From: Nitrospira sp.
Lineage (GTDB): Bacteria; Nitrospirota; Nitrospiria; Nitrospirales; Nitrospiraceae
Assembly: GCA_005116775.1 (NCBI GenBank)
Contig: SWDN01000003.1
Span: 277,830-341,829, forward strand
Length of the DNA stretch: 64,000 nt
Direction of reading: 5' to 3'
Part shown: one piece after another, positions 4,262 to 62,114 of the stretch
Position numbering within the stretch: position 1 is the stretch's first letter
How the letters are laid out: every line of letters starts with the position of its first letter
Notes under the pieces: model-generated
What the model was told of the DNA's origin: nothing
Databases searched by the model: none
What the model saw: the letters and a program-made list of their open reading frames with translations, nothing else
Translations under genes and position numbers: made by a program

Positions 4262-4293
4262 CCCGCTGCACAATCGACCTTTCTGATACGACC

Positions 4294-4956
4294 ATGATAA
4301 CGAAAGCTTCGCCATCTTCGGATCGTCGGACGCGTCTCCAAGAAATTGCAAAGACCCTCCAGCGCACGATGCCAAGTCCAAAGATGGAGCTCGACCATCG
4401 CTCCCCTTGGGAGTTGCTTGTGGCAACCATCCTCTCCGCCCAATGTACCGATCAGCGAGTGAACCAAGTCACGCCATCGCTTTTTCGTCGGTATCGGCAA
4501 CCGGCAGAGTTGGCGACAGCCCATCTTTCTGAGGTCGAAGAACTCATTCGTTCTACCGGCTTCTTTAAGAACAAAGCGAAACATCTTGTCGACTGCGGCA
4601 AAGCTGTGACCGAGCGCTTCGGCGAACAGGTTCCGCACACAATGGAAGAGTTGATCACGTTGCCGGGTGTTGGCAGGAAAACGGCAAATGTCATTCTGGG
4701 GACTGCGTTCAGCCAACCCAGTATCGTCGTCGATACCCATGTGAAGCGCGTGGCGAAGCGACTTGGATTGACCAGATCCGACAATCCAGACTTGGTCGAA
4801 CAAGACCTGCAGCAGCTCCTGCAAAAATCCCAGTGGACCGCTGTTTCGCAACGATTATTATTGCATGGCCGCTATGTCTGTCTTGCCAGAAAACCCCAGT
4901 GCGCCACATGTCCGGTCTACCGGCACTGCCCATGGAAAGAGAAAGGTCTCCAATGA
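4294..4956 (+). CDS. nth: Endonuclease III (base excision repair glycosylase/AP lyase)
   Basis: This enzyme removes oxidised pyrimidines from DNA and nicks the abasic site. The 220-aa protein has ILSAQCTDQRVN, the helix-hairpin-helix LPGVGRKTANV with the catalytic lysine just before TANV, the catalytic aspartate in VVDTHVKR, and the C-terminal iron-sulfur cluster cysteines in CLARKPQCATCPVYRHC. Length is typical. The stop overlaps the yicC start as ATGA, so the two are probably translationally coupled. Confidence 0.96.
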   Translation: MITKASPSSDRRTRLQEIAKTLQRTMPSPKMELDHRSPWELLVATILSAQCTDQRVNQVTPSLFRRYRQPAELATAHLSEVEELIRSTGFFKNKAKHLVDCGKAVTERFGEQVPHTMEELITLPGVGRKTANVILGTAFSQPSIVVDTHVKRVAKRLGLTRSDNPDLVEQDLQQLLQKSQWTAVSQRLLLHGRYVCLARKPQCATCPVYRHCPWKEKGLQ

Positions 4957-5831
4957 TTCGTAGCATGACTGGTTTTGGACGACGACAGGCGCCCTGGCAG
5001 GATGGATCCGTGACGGTGGAGATGCGCTCCGTCAACCATCGCTTTCTAGAAATTGCCTGTCGCATGCCCAGGCCGCTAAGCCCTCTGGAAGACACCTTCA
5101 AGAAAGCCATTCAGCAGCGCTGTACACGTGGGCGCATCGACGTCACGGTGACGGTCCAGGCGGGCAAAGGCCGCGCCGAAAACGTCATTCTTGACCAATC
5201 CCTCGCGAAACAGTACCATCAGGCCCTCCGGACCCTCAAGAAATCCCTGAAGCTGAGCGGTTCTATCGATCTTGCGCTGATGGCTGGGCTCCGCGATGTG
5301 CTGTCGGTATCGGATCAACCGACGGAAGACCCGAAACTGGCGAAGATCGCTCAACAACTGACGGTCCAGGCATTGGCGGATCTTGAGGGCATGCGAACAC
5401 GCGAAGGGAAGGCCCTGGCAGAGGATATGAGTGCGCGGATTCAGACGATCCGAGGTCATAAGACCCTTGTCGCCGCACGGACTCCTCTACTGGCCCAGGA
5501 AATCTTTGACAAAATGAAGGGTCGTGTGGAAAAACTATTGGGATCGGAAATCCCCGACCCTTCCCGGCTGTATCAGGAGCTGGCGGTATACGCCGATCGT
5601 GGCGATATTACGGAAGAAATAGTCAGGTTGGACTCGCATATGATACAGTTTGAGCAGACGATCAACCGCGCAGACTCTGTAGGCAAAACACTCGATTTCC
5701 TACTTCAGGAAATTGGGCGGGAAGTCAACACGATCGGGTCGAAAGCCAACGATGCGGAAATCGCCGGTCATGTGGTCCAGATGAAGGCCGAACTGGAACG
5801 CATTCGTGAACAGGTCCAGAACGTCGAATGA
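4953..5831 (+). CDS. YicC family endoribonuclease
   Basis: This is a 292-aa YicC/YloC-type protein, a family shown in E. coli and Bacillus to cleave RNA. The conserved start MIRSMTGFGR, MRSVNHRFLEI and the C-terminal DFLLQEIGREVNTIGSKAND are all present. The ATG at 4953 overlaps the nth stop, and the stop overlaps the gmk start, both as ATGA. The track ORF starting at 4833 only adds antifamily sequence. Placement directly before gmk and rpoZ is the classical yicC-gmk-rpoZ order. Confidence 0.93.
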   Translation: MIRSMTGFGRRQAPWQDGSVTVEMRSVNHRFLEIACRMPRPLSPLEDTFKKAIQQRCTRGRIDVTVTVQAGKGRAENVILDQSLAKQYHQALRTLKKSLKLSGSIDLALMAGLRDVLSVSDQPTEDPKLAKIAQQLTVQALADLEGMRTREGKALAEDMSARIQTIRGHKTLVAARTPLLAQEIFDKMKGRVEKLLGSEIPDPSRLYQELAVYADRGDITEEIVRLDSHMIQFEQTINRADSVGKTLDFLLQEIGREVNTIGSKANDAEIAGHVVQMKAELERIREQVQNVE

Positions 5832-6538
5832 ATTCAGTCACCACGACCAGCCCTACGGCTCCGGCATCCGACCATGCGCGGTCTTCAATGGATCGTCGCG
5901 GAATTCTTTTCATTATCTCTGCGCCATCCGGAACGGGGAAAACGACACTGTGTAAACAGCTCGCGGCGAATCTCCCAGGACTGTGGCATTCAATTTCCTA
6001 TACGACGAGGAAGCCGCGGCCGGGCGAAGAGCATGGCCGCGAGTATTATTTCATTGAGGAACAGTCATTTCGAGACATGATCGCGCGAAATGAATTTGTC
6101 GAGTGGGCTCATGTCTACGGACACCTCTATGGGACGCCGCGGAAGTCGCTGACCGAAAAGACCGAGCAAGGGATCGATGTGTTATTGGAGATCGACGTGC
6201 AAGGGGCGATGCAGGTCAAAAAGCGATTCGAGGATTCGGTGGCGATTTTTATTCTTCCGCCCTCGATGACCGTGCTCCGGGCTAGACTCCAAACCAGAGC
6301 CTCCGATACCGCGGATGAGATCCAACGGCGTCTCAACAAGGTCAAAGAGGAAGTGTGGAGCTATCGAGAATACGCCTATGTCGTTCGAAACGAAGATCTC
6401 GGCCAGTCGCTTCGCGACCTCGAAAGCATCTTCTGGTCTGAACGGTTGAAGACGAAGCGGTTGAATATGGGCTGGCTCGAAAGTAATTTCATTCTTGACG
6501 ATGAACAAAAACCTGAAGATCACAACGATCTTCCCTAA
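5828..6538 (+). CDS. gmk: Guanylate kinase
   Basis: Gmk phosphorylates GMP to GDP. The P-loop SAPSGTGKTT, the GMP-binding YTTRKPRPGE and HGREYYFIEE, and the EIDVQGAMQVKK segment are intact. The start at 5828 (ATGA overlap with yicC) gives 236 aa. An internal ATG at 5888 would give about 216 aa, closer to the usual 200-210, so the first 20 residues may be untranslated or a lineage extension. It sits in the yicC-gmk-rpoZ-coaBC cluster. Confidence 0.95.
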   Translation: MNSVTTTSPTAPASDHARSSMDRRGILFIISAPSGTGKTTLCKQLAANLPGLWHSISYTTRKPRPGEEHGREYYFIEEQSFRDMIARNEFVEWAHVYGHLYGTPRKSLTEKTEQGIDVLLEIDVQGAMQVKKRFEDSVAIFILPPSMTVLRARLQTRASDTADEIQRRLNKVKEEVWSYREYAYVVRNEDLGQSLRDLESIFWSERLKTKRLNMGWLESNFILDDEQKPEDHNDLP

Positions 6539-6559
6539 CCCCGAAGGAGCACCGGACTC

Positions 6560-6916
6560 ATGATCGACATGTTAAGACTCTTACCACAATACACTCAAGG
6601 TGAGTTCGATTCGCGCCACCGGCTGGCGATTCTTACAGCCCAACGAGCAAAGCACATTGTTCAGGGATCGCGTCATGCTCCCTCGCGCTTTACCAAGGAA
6701 ACGGCCATCGCCCTCGATGAAGTCCTCCGGGGACAAATCTCATACCTCGTCGGCCAAGAAGCCCGGGATGCCATGAAGGAGGCAAAACGCGGCAAGGAAG
6801 GCGAAATGGAGCGGGTGGCCTTGATGACCGGCGACGATGCGAAAGAGATCAAAAAGGAGCTGAGCGTCTATGTCGACGACAGTCCAAAGCCAGTAGTGGG
6901 TGAGAGCGAGGAGTAA
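6560..6916 (+). CDS. rpoZ: RNA polymerase omega subunit
   Basis: Omega assists assembly of the RNA polymerase beta-prime subunit. The 118-aa protein carries the characteristic SRHRLAILTAQRAKHIVQGS helix early on and a charged C-terminal tail longer than that of E. coli. A GAAGGAG ribosome site precedes the ATG. Its position after gmk and before coaBC supports the call. Confidence 0.9.
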   Translation: MIDMLRLLPQYTQGEFDSRHRLAILTAQRAKHIVQGSRHAPSRFTKETAIALDEVLRGQISYLVGQEARDAMKEAKRGKEGEMERVALMTGDDAKEIKKELSVYVDDSPKPVVGESEE

Positions 6917-6919
6917 CCG

Positions 6920-8231
6920 GTGACGATTTCCGATTCGAGCGGGCCGATGTTGACTGGAAAACAGATCGTGCTCGGCGTGACCGGCAGCATCGCGGCCTAT
7001 AAGTCCGTGTCCTTACTCAGAACGTTACTCCGCGAAGGAGCAATCGTGCATGTAGTAATGACGCAATCGGCCACGAAGTTCGTCACCCCGCTTACATTTG
7101 AAGTGCTCTCCGGCCATCCTGTTTCGACGGATCTGTTCGAGGCGCACGATGAGATGAAGCACTTGTCATTGCCAGAACAGGCAGATGTCGTCGTCGTTGC
7201 GCCTGCCACGGCCAATTGTCTTGCAAAGTCAGCGCTGGGGCTGGGCGACGATCTGCTCTCGACCATGCTCCTGACGGCACAGTGCCCGCTGATTATGGCC
7301 CCCGCCATGGACGGAGGGATGTGGACTCATCCATCCGTCACCGAACACGTAGCGACATTGCGTGCGAGGGGAACGATTGTGGTGAGTCCAGAAATAGGAC
7401 CGCTCGCTTCAGGACGGATCGGCCAAGGCCGCTTGGCAGAGGAAGCCACAATTTTGGAAGCTATTCAGGCAGCGTTGGCTCCACGACGCGATTGGCAAGG
7501 ACATCGTATTCTGGTTTCGGCAGGCCCGACGGTGCGACTGGCAAGGACACCGCGTGCTGGTTTCGGCAGGCCCGACGCAGGAACCGATCGATCCAGTGCG
7601 CTTCATTTCAAACCGGTCTTCCGGCAAGATGGGCTATGCGATTGCTGAGGCCGCCCGAGCGAGAGGAGCCCAGGTGGTCCTCGTCACAGGTCCCACAGCC
7701 TTGCAGGCGCCGAAAGGCGTCGAGGTCGTGTCGGTTGCCACGGCTGAAGACATGTTGAAGGCACTGTCCACGCGCCTCGCATGGTCTACCATGGTCATCA
7801 TGGCTGCTGCTGTGGCGGACTTTCGTCCCATAGAGCCGTGTTCGCAAAAAATAAAGAAACAAGGGCGAACTGGCCAGATGCTCGATCTCGAACGCACGAC
7901 GGATATTCTGGCCTCCTTATCCGCCCAGCGGACCACGCAACTCATGGTCGGCTTTGCCGCTGAGACCCATGATTTGATCGCTCATGCGAAAGAGAAACTC
8001 ACAGTAAAAGGACTCGACCTGATTGTCGCAAACGATGTCACGGTAGAGGGAGCAGGGTTCGGCAGCGATCAGAACAGCGCTACATTGATCGATCGGCAGG
8101 GGATTGTCACAGAACTGCCCCTGATGCCAAAACGAACACTTGCCGACGCAATTTTGAACCGGGCTCACGAATTGCTGAGGGCAAGACAATCCGTCGAGCC
8201 ACTCAAACCTGTTGCAGGAGAACGGTCCTAG
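6920..8231 (+). pseudogene. coaBC: CoaBC bifunctional coenzyme A biosynthesis protein, split by a tandem duplication
   Basis: CoaBC joins cysteine to 4'-phosphopantothenate (CoaB) and decarboxylates the product (CoaC). The GTG start follows a GAGGAG site. The flavodoxin-like CoaC half has GVTGSIAAYKS and PAMDGGMWTHPSV; note PAMD where the usual motif is PAMN, a variant I recall from some other lineages. At 7488-7579 a 46-bp direct duplication with five mismatches moves the frame. The CoaB half (SAGPTQEPIDPVRFISNRSSG, then AAAVADF) therefore continues only in the second ORF, which ends at 8231. Deleting one repeat unit restores one continuous protein of about 420 aa. CoaBC is normally essential, so the break is suspect. 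Confidence 0.9.
7488..7579. repeat. 46-bp divergent tandem duplication inside coaBC
   Basis: Unit one starts GCGATTGGCAAGGACATCG and unit two GCGACTGGCAAGGACACCG, 46 bases apart. Over 44 aligned bases they differ at five positions that change only one amino acid (Ile/Val) when read in the CoaBC frame. The two units therefore look like alleles of the same site joined head to tail. Because 46 is not a multiple of three, the gene is frameshifted. Confidence 0.85.
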
Positions 8232-8234
8232 TTT

Positions 8235-8915
8235 ATGGCTCAGAATCAAAACACTGCCGAGAACGCGCTGGAAATCGATCGGCTAGCTACCCAGTTGGCT
8301 AAAGACCCCCATTCCAAAGCGTTCATGCCTCTGGCTGAAGAGTATGGAAAAGTCGGCATGTGGCAGGAAGCTGCCGGCGTCCTCGAAGATGGACTCAAGG
8401 TCTATCCCGGTTTCATTACAGCCATGGTTGCACTTGGACGCGCCTATGACCATATGGGGCAGTCCATGAAGGCTAAGGCGATACTAGAGGAATCTGTCAA
8501 GCTGAGCCCGGATAACCTGCGCGCGCACAGGACGTTGATTAAGATCTACCAGAGTCAGGGGCTGAACGAATCAGCGATCCAATCTTGTGCGGTTATCCTG
8601 GCGGTCAACCCACGGGATGAAGAAGCACTCTCAGTCCAGTCTGCGTTGGGTGGACCACTAAAACAAAGCAAGAGACCGGAAGGGCCAACGCCTGAGGCTT
8701 CGGTCGCGCACAATCTTGTTGGCCAGAAGAAGCGTCAAGCAGAAGAACAGGTCATGGATTCTGGGGCAGCCCCCCCAACTACCGACGCTGGGGAGATTCC
8801 TCCTACGTCACCGCGCACTGAAGTTGTCGTACAACTGGAGTCCTGGCTTCGGAGTATTGAATTGCGCCGGCATGATCGAGACACCACAAACACACCGCAC
8901 TCTAAAGCCTCTTAA
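8235..8915 (+). CDS. TPR-repeat protein of unknown role
   Basis: This 226-aa protein has two to three tetratricopeptide-like repeats in residues 25-130 (for example PLAEEYGKVGMWQEAAGVLEDGL and ALGRAYDHMGQSMKAKAILEESV). A low-complexity Pro/Thr-rich linker and a short conserved-looking C-terminal segment (VVQLESWLRSIELRR) follow. There is no signal peptide, so it is probably cytoplasmic and acts through protein contacts. It starts three bases after the coaBC stop and is probably co-transcribed. No specific function can be assigned. Confidence 0.8.
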   Translation: MAQNQNTAENALEIDRLATQLAKDPHSKAFMPLAEEYGKVGMWQEAAGVLEDGLKVYPGFITAMVALGRAYDHMGQSMKAKAILEESVKLSPDNLRAHRTLIKIYQSQGLNESAIQSCAVILAVNPRDEEALSVQSALGGPLKQSKRPEGPTPEASVAHNLVGQKKRQAEEQVMDSGAAPPTTDAGEIPPTSPRTEVVVQLESWLRSIELRRHDRDTTNTPHSKAS

Positions 8916-8929
8916 TATTTTTCATGCGT

Positions 8930-8958
8930 TTGACCGGTCTGAGGCGGACTGCTACAAT
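8930..8958 (+). promoter_or_regulatory. Sigma70-type promoter for aroQ-efp-accBC
   Basis: TTGACC and TACAAT are separated by 17 nt, an almost ideal sigma70 promoter, and lie about 65 bases upstream of aroQ. Transcription would begin near base 8965. This separates the aroQ-efp-accB-accC unit from the preceding coaBC cluster. Confidence 0.7.
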
Positions 8959-9023
8959 GCCGTCCTGCTGGGGGCTGTCACAGAAAATCATCCTTGCATA
9001 TTCAGTTATGTGAATAGAGAGAC

Positions 9024-9524
9024 ATGCTACGAATACGAGTCTTGCACGGTCCCAATCTCAATCTTCTCGGGACGAGAGAACCGTCCATATATGGCGCCCT
9101 CTCACTCGACGCTGTGAACTCAGCCATCATGAAGTTGGCTGAAGAGTTAGCCGTGGAAGTCGATCTGCGCCAGTCGAATAGCGAGGGTGAACTCGTCAAC
9201 TGGATTCAAGAGGCTGGGACGGGATACGATGGGATGATTATTAACCCGGCTGCCTATACGCATACCAGCATCGCAATCCGGGATGCCATTGCGGCGGTCG
9301 GTCTGCCGACCATTGAAGTGCATCTGTCCAACATTCATCGGCGGGAAGAATTTCGCCAGCGCTCCTATATCGCGGGAGTCGCCATTGGACAGATTTCCGG
9401 CTTAGGTCCAACCGGCTATCTCCTGGCACTTCGTGGTTTGCACGACCATCTCACTGCGTCGAGGCGCCAGAAGAAAACCTCCACATCCGTAACATCGCGA
9501 CGGGCGGCAAAAGGAACGAGATAA
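9024..9524 (+). CDS. aroQ: Type II 3-dehydroquinate dehydratase
   Basis: AroQ performs the third step of the shikimate pathway. The 166-aa protein shows [17 protein letters not shown] with the active-site tyrosine, [21 protein letters not shown] and [15 protein letters not shown] basic, Ser/Thr-rich tail of about 20 residues extends beyond the usual end. It is followed by efp and accBC, a common bacterial order. Confidence 0.95.
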
Positions 9525-9571
9525 TTGCGGCGCCGATCGAATGACTGCAGACAGCGTGAAGGGAGCATCGA

Positions 9572-10132
9572 GTGATTTCCACGACAGATTTTCGCGGTGG
9601 TGTGCGCCTCATGGTCGACAACCAGCCCTTTTATATCGTTGAGTTTCAACATGTCAAACCGGGCAAAGGTGGAGCCTTTGTGCGCACCAAGCTTAAGAGC
9701 TATCTGTCTGGTAACGTCCTGGACCGGACTTTCCGATCCGGCGAACGGTTCGAGGAGCCCGATCTCGAAGAGCGGACCATGCAATTTCTCTATGCAACTG
9801 ACGACGCCTATACCTTCATGGACACAGAGACCTTCGAACAACTGACGTTCGAAAAGGGCAAGCTCGGTGGAAATGCCGATTTATTGAAAGAAAACATGAT
9901 CGTGAAAATCCTCGTCTACGAACACCGCCCGATCGACGTCGAGCTGCCGAACTTTATCGAACTCAAAGTCAGCGACACTGAGCCGGGTTTCCGCGGCGAC
10001 ACCGCCACAGGCGGCACGAAACTCGCGACCCTTGAAACCGGCGCCACCATTAAGGTCCCTCTCTATTTGGAAACTGGAACGGTGATTAGAATCGATACCC
10101 GTACACGAGAGTATGTGGAGCGAGTTCGGTGA
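9572..10132 (+). CDS. efp: Translation elongation factor P
   Basis: EF-P helps the ribosome through consecutive prolines. The 186-aa protein has the N-terminal KOW-like domain with the loop [16 protein letters not shown], whose lysine is the residue modified in many bacteria, followed by two OB domains ending in [17 protein letters not shown]. The GTG start at 9572 has a GAAGGGA site. The stop overlaps the accB start (GTGA). Confidence 0.95.
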
Positions 10133-10876
10133 GTAAACGGCCATCCAGCGCATCAAAGAAGGGTGGGAAGCCGATCATCCTTCCTCAGGCCTTTGCCGCC
10201 AACCAAAGTGGGCAGGGGACAGGCGGTCTGTCAGGACAACAGACCAGGCATATCCAAGAGTTGATCGATCTCCTCAAGAAGAACAATCTGACTGAATTGG
10301 AGATGGAGTGGGAAGACGTGAGAATTCGCGTGCGGCACGAAGCCGTGTCGAGAACGGTTACGGCTACGGTTCCTGAACAGCACGGGACATCCGTTGCACT
10401 GTCTGCCGTACAACCGCCCGCTGCCGCAGGCGTAAAGACCGAAGACACATCAGGCATGATCACCATCGTGTCCCCCATCGTCGGGACATTCTATCGGTCC
10501 CCTTCGCCGGATGCCGATCCCTATGTCGACGAAGGCGATTATGTAAAAAAAGGACAGGTCCTGTGCATCGTCGAAGCGATGAAGCTGATGAACGAAATCG
10601 AATCGGAGGTCCGAAAACACGACAGGGATGGTCACCATCGTGTCTCCGATCGTCGGAACGTTCTATCGGTCTCCCTCTCCGGATGCCGACCCCTATGTCG
10701 AAGAGGGCGATTACGTGAAAATTGGGCAGGTTCTGTGCATCGTCGAAGCCATGAAGCTGATGAATGAAATCGAATCGGAGGTCAATGGGCGGGTCATGAA
10801 AATTTTGGCCGAAAGCACCAAGCCGGTGGAGTATGGCCAAGCGCTCTTCCTCGTCGATCCGACAGCCGCACCATAG
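10129..10876 (+). pseudogene. accB: Biotin carboxyl carrier protein of acetyl-CoA carboxylase, split by a tandem duplication
   Basis: AccB carries biotin for fatty-acid synthesis. The reading frame opens with GTG overlapping efp and contains the N-terminal helix ([22 protein letters not shown]), a Pro/Ala linker and the biotinyl domain with EAMKLMNE. A 172-bp tandem duplication of the biotinyl-domain region (10439-10782) then shifts the frame. The proper end, [19 protein letters not shown] to VDPTAAP, is read in the ORF ending at 10876. Removing one unit gives an intact protein of about 190 aa. The gene is essential in most bacteria and sits directly before accC, so an assembly or strain-mosaic artefact is likely. 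Confidence 0.92.
10439..10782. repeat. 172-bp divergent tandem duplication inside accB
   Basis: Two adjacent 172-base units (10439-10610 and 10611-10782) both encode [20 protein letters not shown] through [13 protein letters not shown]. They differ mainly at third codon positions. The units meet exactly at GGAGGT/CCGAAAA. The divergence level is that expected between strains rather than from a fresh duplication. Confidence 0.9.
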
Positions 10877-10909
10877 TCTTCTTCCCTCGACCCACATCGG
10901 AGTACTCGA

Positions 10910-12250
10910 TTGTTCAAGAAAGTATTGATAGCCAATCGCGGTGAGATTGCACTCCGCGTGATTCGCGCCTGCAAGGAGCTCGGCATTAAGACCGTGGCGA
11001 TCTTTTCTGAGGCCGATGCGGCGAGTCTCCATGTCCGCGCAGCCGATGAGAAGATCTGCGTCGGGCCTTCTGACGCAGCGCTGAGCTACAGAAATATTCC
11101 CAACGTCCTGAGCGCCGCCGAGATCACCGGGGCGGATGCCATCCATCCCGGCTATGGTTTCCTCTCCGAGAACGCCCATTTTGCAGAAGTGTGCGAGTCC
11201 ATCGGCATCAAATTCATCGGCCCAACATCTGAACACATCGCCCTCCTGGGCGACAAGGCCAAAGCGCGTGAAATCGTTGCACGCCGTGGCTTACCCGTTA
11301 CGCCAGGCAGCCCCGGCGAACTGAAGAGCGAACAGGGAGCCCTCGAAGCCGCCGGCAAGGTCGGCTATCCCGTCATCATCAAAGCCTCAGCCGGTGGAGG
11401 AGGACGCGGCATGCGCGTCGTCAATAAAGCCGAAGATCTCGCTCGTGCGTTTCAAGCCGCTCAGGCCGAAGCAAAAACTACTTTCGGGAACGACGCCGTC
11501 TACCTCGAACGATATTTTCTCGAGCCTCGCCATATTGAAGTGCAGATCGTCGCCGACCATCGTGGGCATGTCGTACATCTTGGCGAGCGCGACTGCTCGA
11601 TCCAACGCCGGCATCAGAAATTGCTTGAAGAAACGCCGTCGCCTGCCGTCGACGAAAAACTCAGACGGGAAATCTGTCGAGTTGCGGTCGAAGCCGTCAA
11701 AGCCGTGCACTACAGGAATGTCGGCACCGTCGAGTTCCTGCTCGACAAGGACCACAACTTTTTCTTCATGGAAGTGAACACCCGCATTCAGGTGGAACAC
11801 GCGATCACCGAAATGGTCACGGGCATCGACCTCATCAAGGAGCAGATCCGCCTCGCGGACGGGCAATCCCTCTCGTTCAAACAGCAAGACGTCAAACTCA
11901 ATGGGCACAGCCTCGAATGCCGCATCAATGCCGAAGACCCGGAAAAGTTTACGCCCTCTCCCGGCATGATCACCAAATACAGCGCGCCAGGTGGATTCGG
12001 TGTGCGAGTCGACTCCGCGATGGAATCGAACATGATGGTCGTCCCGTTCTACGATTCGATGATCGCCAAGGTTATCACGCATGGCCGGGACCGGCAGGAA
12101 TCCATTGCCCGCATGCGCCGAGCCCTTGACGAATTCGTGATCGAAGGTATCAAGACGACCATCCCACTGCACAAACGCATCCTCAACGATCCCGACTTCC
12201 AAAAGGGCCACGTATCAACCATTTTCCTCGAACGGTTCCTCACCAGTTAG
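10910..12250 (+). CDS. accC: Biotin carboxylase of acetyl-CoA carboxylase
   Basis: AccC carboxylates the biotin on AccB with ATP and bicarbonate. The complete 446-aa ATP-grasp enzyme shows KVLIANRGEIALRVIRAC, HPGYGFLSEN, the glycine loop SAGGGGRGM, ERDCSIQRRHQK and the active-site EVNTRIQVEH. The start is TTG at 10910 with a CGGAG site nine bases upstream. It is the last gene of the aroQ-efp-accB-accC unit. Confidence 0.96.
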   Translation: MFKKVLIANRGEIALRVIRACKELGIKTVAIFSEADAASLHVRAADEKICVGPSDAALSYRNIPNVLSAAEITGADAIHPGYGFLSENAHFAEVCESIGIKFIGPTSEHIALLGDKAKAREIVARRGLPVTPGSPGELKSEQGALEAAGKVGYPVIIKASAGGGGRGMRVVNKAEDLARAFQAAQAEAKTTFGNDAVYLERYFLEPRHIEVQIVADHRGHVVHLGERDCSIQRRHQKLLEETPSPAVDEKLRREICRVAVEAVKAVHYRNVGTVEFLLDKDHNFFFMEVNTRIQVEHAITEMVTGIDLIKEQIRLADGQSLSFKQQDVKLNGHSLECRINAEDPEKFTPSPGMITKYSAPGGFGVRVDSAMESNMMVVPFYDSMIAKVITHGRDRQESIARMRRALDEFVIEGIKTTIPLHKRILNDPDFQKGHVSTIFLERFLTS

Positions 12251-12734
12251 CGCAACCTCCAGCATCGTCAAAACACTAGTACGAAGCTGTATGTGTCTCA
12301 TCGCTGGACAGATGCTGACCAGCACCCATATCAAGATGCCAGATTCAAGTAAGAACTCAGCGAGGGAACGCAACGAAGCTACCGCTCGTGGTGAAAAGAA
12401 AAATTGATTCGTCAAGCCACAAAATATAGGGGTGCACTGAGGCAAGGCACAATGCCTACTTTTTAGGCATACTGCTGCGAGGTCTTTCGGCATAGGCGCT
12501 TTGCATCATGACAACCCTCTCATCCACAGAGTTATCCACAGAAGCTGTGGAACGGAATCTCTGCAAAAAAAGAGCGCCTATTGAGGAAAACGGGACCGGC
12601 CAGGCTCGTTCATCTCGTTGATCTGTTTTTTCTCTATCGGAACGATTTGATTGAATCAAACACACGAGGCAAACCATTGAGCAGTCTGCTTCGCTGATGA
12701 ACGTGTTCAGTATCTGACAGGGGAGTGACCGACA
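12251..12734. other. 484-bp intergenic region with hairpin, two DnaA-box-like sites and a dispersed repeat
   Basis: No convincing gene is present; the two track ORFs on the minus strand here lack ribosome sites and family features. The region contains a 7-bp hairpin ATGCCTA/TAGGCAT at 12452-12470, which is a possible accC terminator. TCATCCACA and TTATCCACA at 12520-12540 resemble DnaA boxes. A member of the TTTGGTT-type repeat family lies at 12604-12682. Confidence 0.6.
12604..12682. repeat. Dispersed imperfect inverted repeat, copy 1
   Basis: The right part AATCAAACACACGAGGCAAA nearly matches CAATCAAACTAACGAGGCAA at 63905. The left part (GTTCATCTCGTTGATCTG) resembles the GGTTGATCTCGTT arm there. 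The outer arms are only roughly complementary, but the centre TTTGATTGAATCAAA is a tight palindrome. It belongs to the same family as the elements near 23.8, 36.8 and 63.9 kb. Confidence 0.6.
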
Positions 12735-12980
12735 CTACTTCGCAGGTTTTTCAGGACTCTTCTCTGTGATTTTCTTCAACGTATTTCCGATCGCGGACCC
12801 GATCTTCGGAATCTCTTTCTCGATATTATTGGCGGCGCTCTTCAGTCCTCGCCCAAGATCATCAACCGTGAGGCCTTTGCCGTCTCCTGTCTTGCGATTG
12901 TCGGCAGAGGTCGATGCGGCATTGGCCTGCGTAACCCCAACGACCAAGAAGACGACGATGCTGATGACCGTTCTGTACAT
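12735..12980 (-). CDS. Small secreted protein of unknown function
   Basis: The 81-aa protein starts with a clear signal peptide (MYRTVISIVVFLVVGVTQANA) behind a GAGGTG ribosome site. A Lys-rich mature region of about 58 residues follows, containing LTVDDLGRGLKSAANNIEKEIPKIG and ending in a Lys/Pro tail. This segment looks like an amphipathic helix. The longer track ORF has no support. A periplasmic helical protein is inferred; no family is recognised. Confidence 0.65.
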   Translation of the reverse strand: MYRTVISIVVFLVVGVTQANAASTSADNRKTGDGKGLTVDDLGRGLKSAANNIEKEIPKIGSAIGNTLKKITEKSPEKPAK

Positions 12981-13082
12981 GTGACACCTCGCGATTGGAG
13001 AAACTATAGCACGAAGATGCAAAAGGCGTCGTGCTTTCTCGCAGGGAAAGAGGTATTCTTCCACGGCCCTCACAACAACACT

Positions 13083-14441
13083 ATGCAGTCCACTCCACGC
13101 TTCATTCCGCTGCCGCTCTACACACAAGTGCTCATCGCCGTGGCCTGTGGCGTGGCGCTGGGAATGATCTTTGGCCAAGAACCCTATCTGGGAGGCCTAC
13201 GCAACGAGCATCTGGGCTGGCTCGGCCTGCTGCTCGTCACACTACTCAAGACCCTTGCCATCCCGCTCATCTTCTTTGCGATTCTCGATGCGCTCATCCG
13301 CACCAGCCTTCCGCTGCGCCAGGGGACCAAACTGCTTCTCATCTGCCTCATCAACGTCTCTGTGGCCATGACCATCGGCCTCGTGATCATGAACACCTGG
13401 CAGCCAGGTCTCGCCTGGTTGGGCCGCGTCGACGAATTGCTGAACGTCGTGCCAAATCCCAAGCCATCGGCAGACGCCACAGCAACAGTGCAAACCGGGA
13501 CACAGAGTCCGATCGAATATCTGGCGTCCTACATTCCCCGCACCATCATGGCGCCATTTTCAACCGGCAACATCATTGGTGTCGTCCTCCTGGCCCTCTG
13601 CATCGGCGCCACGCTGCGCCGCTTGCATGGCAATGCGGACCAAGGTCGTGGAGTCATTCATACTCTCGTGCGGATCATTGAGCGTGTCTATGCCTGGCTC
13701 GTGCAGATCCTCGGATGGATCATCCTCGCAGTGCCGCTCGCCGTGTTCGGCGTCGTCGCCCAGGTCGTCGGCAAGGCAGGCATCGGCGTCTTCGCCATCC
13801 TCTGGATCTTCCTTGTCACCATGCTCGTGGGACTCGCCATCCACTCGCTTGGCTACTACCCACTCGTTGCCTGGCTGATAGGGAAGAAGTCGCCAAAGGT
13901 CTACATCGGACAGGGGGCCGACGCAATCATGACCGCCGTGTCGTGCAACAGCAGTCTCGCCGCCGTGCCAGTCACCCTCCGGTGCCTCGACCGCATGCAG
14001 GTCTCGCCTCAATCGGCGCGTCTCGCCGCCTGTGTCGGCACGAACCTCAATAACGACGGCATCACCCTCTATGAAGCGATGGCCGCGCTCTTTCTTGCCC
14101 AAGCGTTGGGTTTCGACCTATCAATGGGCAGCCAAGTCCTGATCGTCGCTGCGTCGATGATCGCGGGGGCTGGCGTGGCTGGCATTCCAGAAGCAGGGAT
14201 GATCGTATTGCCACTCGTCCTCTCAGCTGCCGGTTTGCCGCCTCATGTCATCGGCGCGGCCATTCCACTCATCATGACCGTAGATTGGCTCATCGCCCGA
14301 GCCCGCTCCGGCGTGAACGTCCTCAGCGACATGCTCGTCGCCATCCTTCTCGATGTACGGCACGTCACACCAGCTGCTGAATCGAGCGCACAGCAACCTC
14401 GATCCGATACTGCAAATCCGACAGAGCCTCAGCCATCCTGA
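13083..14441 (+). CDS. Dicarboxylate/amino acid:cation symporter (DAACS family)
   Basis: This 452-aa inner-membrane transporter is of the GltP/DctA type. Hydrophobic segments run through the whole protein. The first re-entrant hairpin region is VSCNSSLAAVPVTLRC, in place of the usual serine-rich loop. The substrate/sodium motif is TNLNNDGITLYEAMAALF, compared with the common NMDGT. The last hairpin is AGAGVAGIPEAGMIVLPLVLSAAGLP. The start at 13083 (MQSTPRFIPLPLYTQ) fits the family; the ORF-track start at 12981 adds a non-family segment. The substrate cannot be read from sequence; glutamate, aspartate or C4-dicarboxylates are typical. Confidence 0.88.
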   Translation: MQSTPRFIPLPLYTQVLIAVACGVALGMIFGQEPYLGGLRNEHLGWLGLLLVTLLKTLAIPLIFFAILDALIRTSLPLRQGTKLLLICLINVSVAMTIGLVIMNTWQPGLAWLGRVDELLNVVPNPKPSADATATVQTGTQSPIEYLASYIPRTIMAPFSTGNIIGVVLLALCIGATLRRLHGNADQGRGVIHTLVRIIERVYAWLVQILGWIILAVPLAVFGVVAQVVGKAGIGVFAILWIFLVTMLVGLAIHSLGYYPLVAWLIGKKSPKVYIGQGADAIMTAVSCNSSLAAVPVTLRCLDRMQVSPQSARLAACVGTNLNNDGITLYEAMAALFLAQALGFDLSMGSQVLIVAASMIAGAGVAGIPEAGMIVLPLVLSAAGLPPHVIGAAIPLIMTVDWLIARARSGVNVLSDMLVAILLDVRHVTPAAESSAQQPRSDTANPTEPQPS

Positions 14442-14613
14442 GGAGAGGATTGGTTGGACTCGCTAATTAGTTGTGAGCCTTACGAGGCCGGCCGCAAGCT
14501 AGAAGAACATGAGGGCAGGAATAGTCTTCTTATCTTTTGTTGCTGGGACACAGGACAATGCGACACGCCTACTGAAGCGAACCAGACTACGGGCTGATTC
14601 ACATTCGGCTGGC

Positions 14614-14736
14614 TCACGTGACCATGACATAAAACGTCATCAACACGAGCCCGAAGATGGCGACTAACAGGACCCACTTGAAGGATTTCTTGAATTCGGC
14701 CTCCATGTCATTTCTAGCCTTATCAAAGAGATCCAT
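14614..14736 (-). CDS. 40-residue single-pass membrane protein
   Basis: This gene is too short for the ORF track. An excellent AGGAGGTG ribosome site precedes ATG at 14736. The product begins MDLFDKARNDMEAEFKKSFK, an amphipathic charged helix, followed by one hydrophobic span WVLLVAIFGLVLMTFYVMV. The combination of strong ribosome site, charged helix and single span is typical of genuine small membrane proteins. Its role is unknown. Confidence 0.6.
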   Translation of the reverse strand: MDLFDKARNDMEAEFKKSFKWVLLVAIFGLVLMTFYVMVT

Positions 14737-14865
14737 AAGACACCTCCTACTCTATGGTGCGGGCGCGTTGCAATTCAGTAAACCACAAGTTCAGAGGAAA
14801 AAAAAGGGGGGGGCATGCTGAGCTATTTCCTCTGAATGATATACCGCCTTCTGCTCTGGTTTCTC

Positions 14866-51663: not shown

Positions 51664-53844
51664 TTAGTGTCCCAATCTTCGCCAGGGAATCGGGCTTTTT
51701 CGTTCTTCCTCGTACTGTTTTTGGTCATGAATCTCAGAGTCTTTTTTGTCTCCCTCTTTTTTCTTGCCCGGCAGTACCCAGTAGTCGAGATCGAACCATT
51801 CATTCGAGAGGGCTTTCACAAACCCCATTTCAGTGCTGGGCCGTTCTAGATCCTGACGGAATGCGGTGGAAAACTCGCTTCGCACATAGACGTCGAAGAC
51901 GATCGGTTCGGCGAGAGACTGTCTGAACGGTGTTTGATGGAGGGTCGAGACCTTCCCTGCGATTTGAGAGATCGTCGCGTTACGGGAACCCAGATGATCG
52001 AACACATCGTAGAACCATAGCTGCGCGTGATCGTTGAACAGGCCCGCGAGGCCGCCGAAGAGATATTTTGGTGGACCTAATATGAGCGTATCTAACGCTC
52101 CCGCATAGGTGCCGGCAACGATCCCGATTTTTGAGACGATGTCGTCGGCACCACCGCTGTCTGTATTCAGAAAAATATGAAAGGCATTGGGGAAGCGTTG
52201 ATCCACGTAGGCCTGGCCGACATTAGGGCCGGCCACCCCTAGCACTTTCTGCACGGAGTACCCGTGGTTTGCGAGGATTCGTGAGGCGCTGGCGCTCCGT
52301 TGCACGCCGCCGCTGTGACCGGAGAGGTAGAGCCGATCGCCCTGCCCTGCGTGACGCATGATGTACTCCGCCTCGTTATACCCAGGTCCATGCGAGAGAT
52401 TGAGCATCGACCACAGTACATCGGTGATTGTCCCATGGCGATAGGGAGGACTATAAATGTCGTAGTCCGGGTACGCCGCTCTGGCCCATGCCGCCCACAG
52501 CCCCGTGTCTTGTCCCCATTTATCACCGCCATAGATTCCCCGTGACAGAAAAATCTTTTCGCAGACACGGTCAGGCTCTGGCGCAAAATCCCAATCCATG
52601 TACTTGGGGCCGGTATTGAACTGAAAGGCCTGGCCGACAAACGGCACTTCGCTGATGAGGTTCACCAGGCCCAGTAAAAAATAATACGAGGGCTTATGTC
52701 CGATCTCCACTTCAAGCGCATTCCATACCATTCGAATACTTTTCGCAGGGTAGTAGAGGGGGTTGTCCCGGCCAAACAGCAATCCGGCAACGGTACTGAA
52801 GGGCATCTTGGCCAATTCGAAGACGGCATTCTTGACGCCGATGGCCACGGCAAAGGGATAGCCGGTCCAATAGAGCATGCTCCGAGTGTTGGAAAGCTCA
52901 AGGGCAGCGGTCTTCGCATTTGTGATGTCGCATTCGTACTGTGCTTTGTCTTGGTCCGGCACACCGCTCTTTATGCTGTGTGCAAGAATCGGCTGCGGCG
53001 TCGCCTCGTTGGCATAATCTAATTCGTAGCCGAGATATTCCCTCGTGATCGCCGGCTCATCTTTGAGGCTCGACTCAATATTGAGCGTATCCATGAAATA
53101 GAACCGTACCCCATAGCGAATCAGAGTATCGTCTTCATCCCAGGGAATCTCATACCCCAATACAAAAAAGTGCACATTGCGCATCCTCTCGGTTCGTACC
53201 TCCTTGACTCTCACGCGGAGCCGATCGGTCAGATCACCCTTATCGTCGTCCTTATACTGGTACAGATCCTTCTCGTTCGCATAGGACAGGATTTTGTACA
53301 ACGGCCTGGGTTTGGTTGAGCATGCCTGCTCTGTGGTTTCAGGGTTCCCGACCCACTGTGAACGGCGATCGCACTGCCCCTCACTGACAATAAGTCCTTC
53401 GACCTCCCCCACTCGCTCGTCCGCAACAACCGGTACTTTTCGGATCAGTTCTCGAGCAAGTTTCCTCGATGTCAGATACTCGTCAAATCGTCGCAGGTCC
53501 TGATCCGGATCTGTTGCATCGTACGCGTAAGAGGCAAGCCATTTGACCGACCCCTCGTTTAGTGGAGTGTACTTTGGGGAACAGGCGAGTACTGTGCGAT
53601 GGAGCTGGCGCTCAAGCGCGATTTGGAAATTGCGAATCGTCCAGGCGCCGGCTCCCAACGGGCCGAAATCCCCTTTCAGTGTCTCATCCACCTCAGACTT
53701 CAACACCACGGTACAGCCAGGCTTCTGAACGGCGGACTCCGTTTCCAGCGCGAGATGATATGGCAGATCTGACGCGCAACCCTGCAACAAGAGACAAAGC
53801 CCCAGAATAAAAGAACCGATCCACTACATCCTTGGCATCGTCAT
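51664..53844 (-). pseudogene. Large alpha/beta-hydrolase lipoprotein with an amber codon in its signal peptide
   Basis: The open frame of about 708 aa (from TTG 53790) lacks a normal start. A GGAGG site is followed by ATG at 53844, giving MTMPRM, then TAG (53826-53824), then an ideal lipoprotein signal (WIGSFILGLCLLLQGC) ahead of the open frame. The protein has a large N-terminal region of unknown fold. The hydrolase nucleophile motif LSGHSGGVQRS is near residue 500, with GVAGPNVGQ after it. Identity as a GxSxG lipase/hydrolase-like protein is likely; exact substrate is unknown. It lies 71 bases downstream of the protease-hydrolase gene. Confidence 0.7.
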
Positions 53845-53915: not shown

Positions 53916-55835
53916 TTAGATCGATTTTCCCTTCATGAGTGCAATCACGCTCGTCATGGTGACTGCGTCGTCGTCGAATCCACCATGCGTCGTGCTGGTC
54001 GATTCCTTGCCTGGCGCAGCCCAGGTAGAGACGTTCGGCAAATTCTTCGATCCAATGTGGTCGTTGAAATATTTCTCCATGCCAAGTATCGGCGTCGTCT
54101 GTCCTTGTTCCAACGATTGCGATACCAAATAGAGCAGCGAGCGGCTGTAGCCGAGAATCGGCTTGCATGTTGGATCTTTCTGCTCCATGTCGTCGGATAG
54201 ATGGAACTGATTGAAGCGCTTGACCTTGCCGCTTTTGATGGCAGGGACCACGGTCGTATTGAAGAGATCGACCCGCACCGCCGGCGCCATAAAATTCACG
54301 CTTTCGAATGTCCAGCCCTGGCCCCCCAGACGGTCGACGACATGACTGTGTAGGATTGCCCCGGCTGAGTGGCCGACAAGATGCAGTCTCACCTTGGAGA
54401 GATCGGCAAAATACGGCGATTGCTGGCAGGCTCTATAGAGCTTCATGCCTCCACTCTCAGCCGTATTGGAAATCGCGTCTGCATTCTGTTTCATCTCCCT
54501 CCAGATCGCCGTTCCCGGTGTCGTCAAAAGTTTTTCGAGCCGTTCGTTCCACCAACTTTTGACGCCGTCTAAGAATCCGCCGGCCGGACGGGTCTGACCC
54601 GCTAAGACATCTTCGAGACGCCCCTTGAGTGTGGCCCAGAGGTCTGTTTCCCACATCAGGAAGATCGGAAAAATTCGCTGTTCATACAATGCCGGAATCC
54701 ATTTCGCCGCTGTTTCTCCCGCCGTATCCTCAGAGGTGAGACCTCCGTGCGCGTAAATGGCGATATCCAGAGGATCGTTCTTTCCCAAATTCCATGCGGT
54801 CCGTGCCTTACCGAGATGGTGCGTAACGAGCGCATCGATGTCGGACTCCTGGGTGCGAAAATCGCCCGTATTGCTGAGCCGTCCGTTGTTCTCCATGTTG
54901 ATGATGAACGGGCTGATCTCCCGCCTACGCAAGGAAGACTCTCCAGCGAGCTGCACTTTACCGGCTTTCATACGCAATGTCGGCGACTGCGCGATCGTGA
55001 GATGCAGGTCCGTTACCACGCCCAGCTGCGCGACCCAACAATCCATCGCATGGTCGAGCCAATCTTCATACCGCAATATGGCGCGGCCTTTTGTGCCCCA
55101 CTTCGTCCCCCACGAGTTATGCACGATGAATCCATCTTGGGTATAGCCGACGATCGCAAAGGCATGGCCACCGTCGCTGGGGTTTGCCTTCCGGTGTGGA
55201 ATCGTCCAATAGCCGCCTTTGGCCTGTGATCTGTTTGAGGATTCGCCATCCCAGCCGGAGTGACAGACCGCGCTGACATAGAGAATGCCGATCTCGTTGA
55301 GTGCGACATGCATATCCGTAACCGACCGCGTGTCGACGCGGTAATAGGCCCCGAGTGGGCGCTGAACGGCATCGAGCCACCAGTCGTCTGCCGATTTTTT
55401 CACTGGGTCTGTCGGCATCTGTTGCGAGGTCCACAGCCGATCCGAGCAGGCGCCATGCTTGTACCAACCCTTCATGGCGCCGCGCAGACTCGACCCGGTA
55501 TCGACGTCTGGATCACCGGGAAACTCGTCATAGCGCCGAGCCATCGAATACATCATGAATGGGGACACGCAGCAATCCAGCCGCTTGCGTTTCGCGGTAT
55601 GCTGCAAGTGATACACGACACTTGCCAAGGCGAATCCTGTACAGGCATTGGTCTGTTTCTGATTGAGCACAGGAATATTAGTCTTTGGAACCACCGTCAA
55701 CCCTGGAACCACAGCGACCGGCGGCATATAGACCCTATCGCGAAGATCGAGACGATCGGGAACCACATTACGTATGAGAACCCTTGAAGCCCTTGGCTTC
55801 TTCCCTCTTTCAGCAATGATCTTTTTCCTCTCCAT
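53916..55835 (-). CDS. Papain-like protease fused to an alpha/beta hydrolase
   Basis: The 639-aa protein combines two catalytic domains. Residues about 25-275 are a C1A papain-like domain: Gln59, Cys65 in NQKQTNACTGFA, His224 in GGHAFAIVGY and Asn240 in HNSWGTKWGTKG. Residues about 340-630 are an alpha/beta hydrolase with YAHGGL (oxyanion) and Ser490 in VGHSAGA; His617 in THGGFDDD could be the third residue. There is no signal peptide. It precedes the lipoprotein hydrolase on the same strand. The order protease-then-hydrolase in one chain is unusual. Confidence 0.8.
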   Translation of the reverse strand: MERKKIIAERGKKPRASRVLIRNVVPDRLDLRDRVYMPPVAVVPGLTVVPKTNIPVLNQKQTNACTGFALASVVYHLQHTAKRKRLDCCVSPFMMYSMARRYDEFPGDPDVDTGSSLRGAMKGWYKHGACSDRLWTSQQMPTDPVKKSADDWWLDAVQRPLGAYYRVDTRSVTDMHVALNEIGILYVSAVCHSGWDGESSNRSQAKGGYWTIPHRKANPSDGGHAFAIVGYTQDGFIVHNSWGTKWGTKGRAILRYEDWLDHAMDCWVAQLGVVTDLHLTIAQSPTLRMKAGKVQLAGESSLRRREISPFIINMENNGRLSNTGDFRTQESDIDALVTHHLGKARTAWNLGKNDPLDIAIYAHGGLTSEDTAGETAAKWIPALYEQRIFPIFLMWETDLWATLKGRLEDVLAGQTRPAGGFLDGVKSWWNERLEKLLTTPGTAIWREMKQNADAISNTAESGGMKLYRACQQSPYFADLSKVRLHLVGHSAGAILHSHVVDRLGGQGWTFESVNFMAPAVRVDLFNTTVVPAIKSGKVKRFNQFHLSDDMEQKDPTCKPILGYSRSLLYLVSQSLEQGQTTPILGMEKYFNDHIGSKNLPNVSTWAAPGKESTSTTHGGFDDDAVTMTSVIALMKGKSI

Positions 55836-56193: not shown

Positions 56194-56918
56194 TTGGCTA
56201 AAGAGCGGAAATACCGAGGCGAGGTTCCCCTGCATGACAACTATGGTCCAGAAGCGAAATATGCTGTCGAGGCAGAAGCGCTTTTGCCCACTACGAAGTA
56301 CGAGGAAGAAGTGGCTCGGGGTCTGGAGTTAGGCGTGGAGTCGCTCAGAATCTCCTTGGCGGCAAGAAGCTCGGCATCATTCACTTCGATCGGCATGTGG
56401 ACACGCAAGAGACCGATCTCGACGAACGCATGCATACCACTCCTTGGTTCCACGCCACCAACATGCCGAACGTTCCATCTAAAAACCTCGTGCAGATCGG
56501 AATCGGCGGCTGGCAGGCGCCACGGCCCGGCGTGAAGTCAGGGCGTGAACGCCAAACCACCATCATGACCGTCACCGATTGCGTGGAGATGGGGATTGAG
56601 ACTGCGGCAAAACGAGCGCTCGAAGTGGCCTGGGACGGAGTCGATGCGGTCTGGCTCAGTTTCGATGTTGATTGTTTAGACGCCGCGTTCGTGCCGGGAA
56701 CCGGCTGGCCTGAACCAGGAGGGTTCTTACCGCGCGAAGTGCTGAAGTTCCTTCAGATCATCGCGGACAGCAAGCCGATCGCTGGGATGGAAATTGTGGA
56801 GTGCTCGCCTCCCTACGACGCAGCTGAAATCACCAGCCTCATTTCTACTCGTGTGATCTGCGACGTCTTGGCGTGCCAGGTGCGATCCGGCCACTTGCCG
56901 AATCGGAAAAAGCGGTGA
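56194..56918 (+). pseudogene. Ureohydrolase (agmatinase/arginase family), internally deleted and frameshifted
   Basis: The ureohydrolase family hydrolyses guanidino groups, for example agmatine to putrescine and urea. The TTG start (56194) has a GGGAGGTG site. The first ORF gives the N-terminus up to YEEEVARGLELGVES. After a jump and frame change (about 56330-56350) the second ORF supplies KKLGIIHFDRHVDTQETDLDE, with the metal-binding Asp/His pattern, and the second metal site SFDVDCLDAAFVPGTG. About 100-150 residues are missing. It is convergent with an APC permease that may import its substrate. Confidence 0.8.
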
Positions 56919-59762: not shown

Positions 59763-62114
59763 ATGGCGTCGTCCTTTGTCCATCTCCATCTCCATACTCA
59801 ATTCAGTCTGCTCGACGGCGCGAATCAAATCGAGCCGCTGATCCAGCAGATTAAATCGTTCAATCAGCCGGCTGTCGCAATGACCGACCATGGGAACATG
59901 TTCGGGGCCATCGAGTTCTACCGCAAAGCCAAAGAAGCAGGCATCAAACCGATCATTGGCTGCGAAGCCTACATGGCTCCTGGTAGCCGCTTGGCCGCCA
60001 AAGACAGCGGTCTCGCCCACAACGACTATTATCACCTAATCCTCTTGGCTCGAAATCTAACTGGCTATCAGAATCTGATCAAGCTAGTGAGCAAAGCATA
60101 CCTTGAAGGGTTCTATTACAAGCCACGAATGGATAAGGAAATTCTTAAAGATCACCACGAGGGTCTGATTGCCCTATCAGGCTGCTTGAGTGGCGAGATT
60201 CCCTACCTTATCGGCCAGAAGGATATGGATGGCGCGATGGCTGTGGCCGGAGAGTTTCAGGAAATATTCGGGAAGGAACACTTCTACCTCGAAGTGCAGG
60301 CGAATGGGTTGGACCATCAACGAGTCGCGAACAGCGGTCTGCTTGAGATTGCCAAGAAAATGGAGATTCCTCTGGTTGGTACGAATGATTGCCACTATCT
60401 TAAGAAAGAAGATTTCCGTCCACACGAACTGATGCTGTGCCTGCAAACAGGCAAGACGATCAGCGATCCCAATCGCATGAAGTTCGACACAGATCAGCTC
60501 TATGTGAAATCGACGGAAGAAGTCACAGCCGCATTCATTGAGTTCCCCAATGCGGTCACCAATACCTGTCGGATTGCGGACAACTGCGACCTTCAACTGG
60601 CGCTGAACAAAACACATCTCCCACAATATAAAGTTCCAGAGGGATTCACCAGAGAAACCTATCTGGAGCGCCTGGCGTTGGACGGATTGGCGGCTCGGCT
60701 CAAGGAGAGACCCAGTCAGATTCTGCCGGCTACTTATGAGCTGCGTCTGCGTGAAGAGCTGTCGATCATTTGCGCGATGGGATTCGCCGGCTACTTTCTT
60801 ATCGTATGGGACATCATCAAGTTTGCCCGCTCCCGCAACATTCCAGTCGGCCCAGGCCGAGGCTCTGCCGCCGGGAGTCTCGTCGCCTATGCGCTACGCA
60901 TCACGGATCTCGATCCCCTCGTCTACACGCTCTTGTTCGAGCGGTTCCTCAATCCTGAGCGCGTGTCCCTCCCCGATATCGATATGGACTTCTGCATGGA
61001 ACGCCGGGGCGAGGTCATCAACTACGTGGTCGACAAGTACGGTAAGGACCACGTCGCCCAGATTATTACGTTCGGGACGCTCGGAGCGAAGGCTGCGATC
61101 CGGGACGTCGGCCGCGTGCTGGAGATTCCCTATGCTGAAGTCGATCGCGTGGCCAAGCTCGTCCCGAATCAGCTCAACATCACGCTCCAGCAGGCGCTCG
61201 ATCAAGAACAGAAACTACGCGATCTCGTCGAGACCGATACACGGGTGAAAGAATTGATGAGCATCGCCCGTTCTCTCGAAGGACTGGCTCGCCACGCCTC
61301 AACTCACGCCGCCGGCGTCGTGATTTCAGAAGGGCCGCTTACGGACCATGTGCCGCTCTACAAAGGAGCCAACGACGAAATCGTCACCCAATACTCGATG
61401 GGAGACGTCGAAAAGATCGGCGATCGCGCTATCGTCGGAGGCTTTGCCCGATTCAACGACCGGTCGATCATGGTCATCGGCCATCAAAAAGGTAAGACCC
61501 TCAAAGAACGGATGCAACGAAACTTCGGCATGCCGAACCCAGAAGGCTATCGAAAAGCTCTGCGACTCATGAAGATGGCCGAGAAGTTTGGACGCCCGAT
61601 CGTGACCTTTATCGATACACCGGGTGCCTACCCAGGCATCGGTGCAGAAGAGCGCGGCCAAGCTGAAGCCATTGCCCGCAATCTGTTTGTCATGTCCCGA
61701 CTCGCAGTGCCGATCATTTCCATCGTCATCGGCGAAGGCGGCAGCGGAGGAGCGCTGGCATTGGGCGTCTCAGATCGCGTCCTCATGCTGGAGCACGGAG
61801 TCTATTCGGTGATTTCTCCGGAAGGGTGCGCTGCCATCCTGTGGGACGATCCAGCCAAAGTTCCCGATGCCGCCGCCGCACTGAAAATGACGGCGAAAGA
61901 TCTGGTCGACCTCCATATCGTGGATGAAGTGATTCCCGAACCGCTCGGCGGCGCCCATCGAGACCTCAATGCCATCACCGATCGAGTCGCCAAATCTCTC
62001 AGCAATCAACTTTCTCAGCTCAACGACCTCTCCCTCCCTGAATTACTGGCTCAACGAGATCAGAAGTACCGATCCATCGGAGCTGTGGACGGGTTGGCCG
62101 CTATTCCTCAGTAA
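59763..62114 (+). CDS. DnaE N-terminal half fused in frame to AccA C-terminal part
   Basis: Residues 1-552 are DNA polymerase III alpha: the PHP domain [27 protein letters not shown], then [16 protein letters not shown] and the catalytic pair in LPDIDMDF. After [10 protein letters not shown] (about base 61420) it turns directly into acetyl-CoA carboxylase carboxyltransferase alpha: [38 protein letters not shown] and [11 protein letters not shown]. The third polymerase Asp (in the family MDFLGL segment) and about 600 residues of DnaE are missing. About 90 N-terminal residues of AccA are also missing. dnaE and accA are commonly adjacent, so a deletion between the genes explains the fusion. Confidence 0.93.

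Follow-up and report, generated by a model that had tools for sequence, protein, structure and literature searches.

A Nitrospira protein joining papain-like peptidase and alpha/beta-hydrolase domains, a putative two-enzyme effector

For the gene P0001 of a Nitrospira MAG (G000, contig C23; 70% complete), the product is predicted to carry a papain-type peptidase and an alpha/beta hydrolase in a single chain. We give an even chance to the reading that it is a cytoplasmic two-enzyme effector that would dismantle the cell envelope in cell death or lysis, with the papain domain in the role of a caspase. The gene lies in a stretch of 64,000 nucleotides, referred to here as the window.

Gene and protein P0001

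The open reading frame starts with ATG, has no internal stop and encodes 639 amino acids, and the gene and its N-terminal tail are located as follows.

53916..55835, minus strand: gene for the 639-aa papain and alpha/beta-hydrolase protein P0001 (open reading frame and whole-length homologues)
55770..55835, minus strand: residues 1-22, N-terminal tail, basic, disordered and without signal peptide (AlphaFold2 pLDDT below 50 for residues 1-20)

The basic tail is a trait of the whole family, with a median net charge of +6. As the initial annotation had stated for P0001, there is no secretion signal; neither P0001 nor any of 74 homologues has a convincing signal peptide, and the one homologue with a strongly hydrophobic N-terminal stretch has an uncertain start. 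A search of NCBIfam with P0001 gave no match, and in the plasmid records read the relatives are annotated merely as 'C1 family peptidase'.

Papain domain

The N-terminal half is predicted to be a C1A papain peptidase of the xylellain-like type, and thus a protease, with the catalytic Gln, Cys, His and Asn in order.

55011..55769, minus strand: C1A papain (xylellain-like) domain, residues 23-275 (3ois by phmmer and Foldseek)
55659..55661, minus strand: Gln59, oxyanion-hole residue (42/42 homologues)
55641..55643, minus strand: Cys65, papain nucleophile (42/42; also present in the GH19- and muramidase-fused forms)
55164..55166, minus strand: His224, papain general base (42/42 homologues)
55116..55118, minus strand: Asn240 of the papain triad (42/42 homologues)

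Residues 24-268 matched xylellain (3ois) with a phmmer E of 4.9e-12, and the match of this part to Pfam PF00112 lay just over the cut-off (E 3.7e-4). The papain half of the predicted model adopted the papain fold, matching 3ois in Foldseek with an E of 1.6e-15 and a TM of 0.76 on the target.

Alpha/beta-hydrolase domain

The C-terminal half is predicted from sequence and model to have the alpha/beta-hydrolase fold, with a GxSxG elbow between a strand and a helix, an acid beyond a later strand and a histidine beyond the final one.

53919..54938, minus strand: alpha/beta-hydrolase domain, residues 300-639 (AlphaFold2 of residues 281-639 and weak fold matches)
54366..54368, minus strand: Ser490, nucleophile in GHSAG (42/42; retained in the amidase-hydrolase-caspase proteins)
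54174..54185, minus strand: Glu551 to Asp554, candidate acids of the triad, located beyond the next strand after the nucleophile region (E551 and D554 each 42/42)
53985..53987, minus strand: His617, candidate histidine of the triad, located beyond the final strand (42/42 homologues)

Residue conservation was counted over 42 homologues, and H363 (of HGG363-365) and H489 were conserved in 41 of them. The domain had only a sub-threshold match in Pfam, the matches of its relatives being weak and scattered, and no match among PDB sequences. Modelled alone, residues 281-639 gave a pLDDT of 87.9 and a pTM of 0.89, and the whole chain (input of 36 homologues) a pLDDT of 83 and a pTM of 0.68. In the model the order is strand to HGG, strand to Ser elbow, strand to E/D and strand to His, with the residues in the expected loops. 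Fold matches were weak (TM at most 0.48) and included the Nir2 DDHD domain, PET hydrolase, lipases, cutinases and TesA. The substrates of this hydrolase would most likely be membrane lipids or esters of the same cell, lipid being suggested by that weak fold similarity.

The catalytic residues listed in the initial annotation (Q59, C65, H224, N240, GHS490AG and HGG363-365) were all found at those positions, and its picture of two enzymes in one chain is borne out by a fusion conserved in at least eight phyla and by AlphaFold2 models that build both folds. It had proposed that domains found only in separate proteins, or active sites not assembled in a predicted structure, would make the fusion trivial or artefactual; both folds could be modelled, and the same two-domain chain recurs in homologues.

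Distribution and history of the family

In a single scan of a species-level genome collection, 40 loci encoding P0001 relatives were found, mostly full length. The whole two-domain chain occurs in at least eight phyla (Nitrospirota, Pseudomonadota, Acidobacteriota, Rokubacteria, Ignavibacteriota, Bacteroidota, Desulfobulbaceae and Campylobacterota), and further relatives are carried on rhizobial, Eleftheria and Ideonella plasmids. Both active sites are invariant across such distance, indicating selection for both activities. Full-length homologues are present in the complete genome of N. moscoviensis (L052) and in isolates such as Pseudomonas, which rules out a chance ORF or an artefactual fusion as the origin of P0001. 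A phage origin was likewise rejected, as phage records gave only partial papain-domain matches, and one PHROG peptidase match was obtained.

A P0001 match was found in 13 of 32 Nitrospira genomes. Elsewhere, the rate was 3 to 6% in Pseudomonadota (14/399), Acidobacteriota (8/199) and the Rokubacteria phylum (6/95), and about 1% in Bacteroidota (3/248). In a tree of the hydrolase domain, from which the window sequence was left out with its close relatives L022-L031 as stand-ins, the window's Nitrospira clade was sister to Gallionellaceae sequences, while the distant N. moscoviensis copy and the G002 copy fell in other clades; the placement of the long branches L101, L057 and L109 is unsure. The scattered positions of the Nitrospira copies suggest horizontal transfer of the family, and the patchy distribution and the tree together fit a mobile accessory gene.

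Fusions and neighbours of P0001 relatives

Among the relatives, further domains were found in the same chain. N-acetylmuramidase, papain and hydrolase domains are joined in L089 (Pfam PF11860, E 2.5e-61), GH19, papain and hydrolase domains in L090, L053, L054 and L094 (Pfam), and Amidase_2, hydrolase and caspase domains, with papain absent, in the four proteins L099, L100, L106 and L107 (Pfam; caspase E 6e-22 to 4e-27). The serine-hydrolase residues are retained in the muramidase-, GH19- and amidase-caspase-fused relatives. On the tree, the GH19 form by itself calls for at least two changes, and the muramidase and amidase-caspase forms branch in other places.

Similar functions are encoded by separate genes beside other relatives. 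A caspase gene lies 32-132 bp upstream of the homologue in the Rokubacteria L042 (one and the same locus as L110) and L044 and in L059, a contig-end fragment, the caspase genes of L042 and L059 having been found by a search of all reading frames; in L109 a separate caspase gene is 3 bp from the hydrolase gene. A GDSL-caspase-M15 protein (1128 aa, single chain, 3808-7194) is encoded 22 bp from a divergent papain-hydrolase gene in L101, a muramidase lies in the same gene run as the homologue in L108, and a GH19 gene follows 18 bp downstream of it in L032 and L036. A Tle1-like phospholipase gene adjoins the homologue in L099, and trypsin and haem peroxidase genes adjoin it in L098, a peroxidase also being found at L066. 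The GH19 and amidase parts of or near the relatives match phage endolysin families.

In a neighbour scan, partner domains were found only in the family gene or within 4 kb of it and zero further out, a near-versus-far contrast that is biased and carries no statistical test because the query domains were picked from the same neighbourhoods. Many homologues have no telling neighbour.

Several other loci were noted. In L034 (4466-5911) and L036 (9920-12487), an isolated mini-locus by the family gene holds a sheath gene in both, with a GH19 lysozyme and a tube gene in L036. In L067 (7984-10617), a plasmid of Paracoccus encodes a protein that combines trypsin and papain domains, beside a divergent gene of 2422 aa. 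L069 (Nitrospirota, 4820-14798) encodes a cluster of three lipoprotein-like alpha/beta hydrolases, 557-601 aa long and related to P0001 in its C-terminal half, and single genes similar to these occur in L070-L079.

Genes around P0001

In the window, P0001 is flanked by ordinary genes (OmpA-like, PilZ, arginase family, permease and dnaE-accA), and no peptidoglycan hydrolase, caspase or conflict-system core adjoins it. Core MoxR, vWA or VMAP genes were likewise absent from the neighbours at the Nitrospira loci read. The downstream gene P0002 was compared with its relatives.

51664..53790, minus strand: P0002, GHSGG protein, a lipoprotein in relatives, an occasional neighbour only, signal peptide broken here (sequence and neighbourhood comparison)
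53824..53826, minus strand: in-frame TAG in the P0002 signal peptide, six codons past the ATG at 53842-53844 (comparison with relatives)

The position of the TAG is Gln in relatives, whose genes are intact, so in this assembly there is no intact lipoprotein gene. Of the same-strand lipoprotein with a GxSxG motif described in the initial annotation, the gene with its GHSGG motif stands, and the signal peptide is cut by the stop codon. Searches with P0002 in Pfam, NCBIfam, PADLOC and PHROGs gave no match. Its orthologues, with 74-82% identity, were found besides G000 in G017, G023, G024 and G026, all of which are homologue-positive, and a more distant paralogue is present elsewhere in the window's genome (C13). 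An orthologue lies next to or near the P0001 homologue in only a few Nitrospira, and none was found beside it at G005, at G020 or at any non-Nitrospira locus read. A fixed P0001-P0002 partnership is ruled out by these absences, and the initial annotation's suggestion of a joint system of the two is not supported.

Other lesions were observed on the same contig. At 59763-62114, DnaE (first 553 aa) runs in frame into AccA, which is present from about residue 83 on; the junction is at 61420/61421. Relatives carry two full genes, and about 2.1 kb is missing here. DnaE is essential, and the fused gene is the only dnaE match in the window's genome, making an assembly artefact or a strain chimera likely. 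At 56194-56918, an arginase-family gene has cleanly lost about 430-460 bp from its interior and is frameshifted at about 56333, relative to L023 and L087. Counting the P0002 TAG with these two deletions, a stretch of about 8 kb on this MAG contig has three lesions.

Proposed function and alternative explanations

For P0001 as a two-enzyme effector, the papain domain would act as a protease on targets, on partners or on its own chain, and the C-terminal hydrolase would most likely break down lipids or esters in the membranes of the same cell. Taken as a whole, the family may be a kit for a joint attack on protein, membrane and wall that is set free or activated by a trigger such as stress or phage. 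A protease, a probable lipase and the wall hydrolase of relatives, all without export signals, fit the dismantling of a cell from inside or on release. The pairing persists across at least eight phyla, with repeated gains of wall hydrolases or caspases, indicating that the protein is probably an uncharacterised cell-breaking tool rather than a housekeeping enzyme. Against this reading stand the ordinary neighbours in Nitrospira and the route across the membrane that cytoplasmic peptidoglycan hydrolases would need; in Nitrospira the wall-degrading partner may be supplied otherwise or be absent. The suggestion of an effector or defence module in the initial annotation is supported in kind by the peptidoglycan hydrolases, caspases and other lipases of relatives, while the search of PADLOC-DB with P0001 gave nothing above noise (top hit a partial match, E 0.03).

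More tentatively, and with the balance somewhat against it, the family may represent an undescribed modular class of self-lysis proteins, in which one alpha/beta-hydrolase module is joined to a cysteine peptidase (papain or caspase) and a wall hydrolase (GH19, muramidase or amidase), each of which can be exchanged. Papain would here replace caspase as executioner, and the Nitrospira protein would be the two-enzyme form.

An alternative that we consider unlikely is a regulated intracellular processing enzyme, in which self-cleavage by the papain domain would mature or activate the hydrolase for turnover of lipid or storage polymer, with no killing. The one-chain arrangement, the hydrolase module that also stands alone as lipoproteins in Nitrospirota, and the similar surroundings (dnaE-accA, purH and OmpA-like genes) in several Nitrospira would agree with such a role, but patchy presence and apparent horizontal transfer speak against it, and a housekeeping enzyme would not be expected to recruit wall hydrolases and caspases repeatedly.

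It is quite unlikely that P0001 is an antibacterial toxin injected into rival cells by a contractile injection system or T6SS. Among Nitrosomonadales, a tail sheath gene comes after the homologue in L034 and L036, a GH19 lysozyme is encoded in L032 and L036, and L036 has a tail tube gene as well; the multi-hydrolase content recalls T6SS effectors, as does the Tle1-like phospholipase gene in L099. However, among 61 Nitrospirota relatives sampled, the five sheath-positive Nitrospira were all homologue-negative and TssC was found in no Nitrospira. PF04984 and PF05943 were absent from the homologue-bearing Nitrospira, where near-complete relatives agree with the 70% complete window genome. G239 and G240 have one sheath locus each, with no baseplate genes recognised beside it, and no PAAR- or VgrG-like genes were recognised by reading neighbourhoods (no profile used). 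In this sample the sheath genes of Nitrospira are confined to homologue-negative genomes, indicating that injection is no general explanation, and delivery is less likely than lysis of the own cell.

An effector of a MoxR-vWA NTP-dependent conflict system (Kaur et al. 2020) encoded away from its core is very unlikely, since such a core was among the identified neighbours of only one of roughly 75 homologues and of none in the window, even though in L091 a bpMoxR-like ATPase gene and an FGE-sulfatase gene lie downstream of the homologue in the same orientation and caspase/alpha-beta-hydrolase pairing is a stated feature of these systems (PMC7159879).

The envelope-dismantling reading of P0001 would give an annotation to a gene family across at least eight phyla. 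Bacterial caspase-hydrolase pairs are suspected death effectors for which no published test of action was found, and a papain/caspase swap on one hydrolase module with endolysin-like parts offers a concrete, assayable model.

Comparison with known systems

Xylellain-type C1A papain peptidases (3ois; Lpg2622) have the papain fold, the Q/C/H/N residues and an N-terminal 'PDxxDxRD'-like motif in common with P0001, but xylellain is a short, single-domain enzyme whereas the papain domain of P0001 continues into the hydrolase domain. In a review of the papain family, short forms and one lectin fusion are described, and the hydrolase is absent from its text (PMC10380794).

Phage endolysins with GH19, N-acetylmuramidase and Amidase_2 domains are matched by the wall-hydrolase parts fused to or beside P0001 relatives; unlike them, P0001 itself has no wall-hydrolase part and its setting is not prophage-like.

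A destructive role in PCD was proposed for Amidase_2-metacaspase proteins, one of which carries a GDSL lipase (Asplund-Samuelsson et al. 2012, PMC3501461). The idea of protease, lipase and wall amidase is common to these proteins and the P0001 family, and the relatives L099, L100, L106 and L107 are Amidase_2-hydrolase-caspase proteins, whereas P0001 has papain and an alpha/beta hydrolase instead of caspase and GDSL lipase, and no amidase.

According to Kaur et al. (2020, PMC7159879), the caspase domains of VMAP conflict systems are invariably accompanied by a neighbouring alpha/beta hydrolase. The MoxR-vWA (VMAP) and GAP1-N1 effectors likewise combine a peptidase with an alpha/beta hydrolase, and P0001 relatives pair with caspases, one near a bpMoxR-like gene; the peptidase of those effectors is a caspase, whereas P0001 has papain in a fused chain and no core NTPase system beside the Nitrospira gene. 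A literature search of open-licence PMC papers returned no description of the papain and alpha/beta-hydrolase architecture. The theme of a peptidase and alpha/beta-hydrolase effector is already known, and its papain version is, as far as searched, apparently new.
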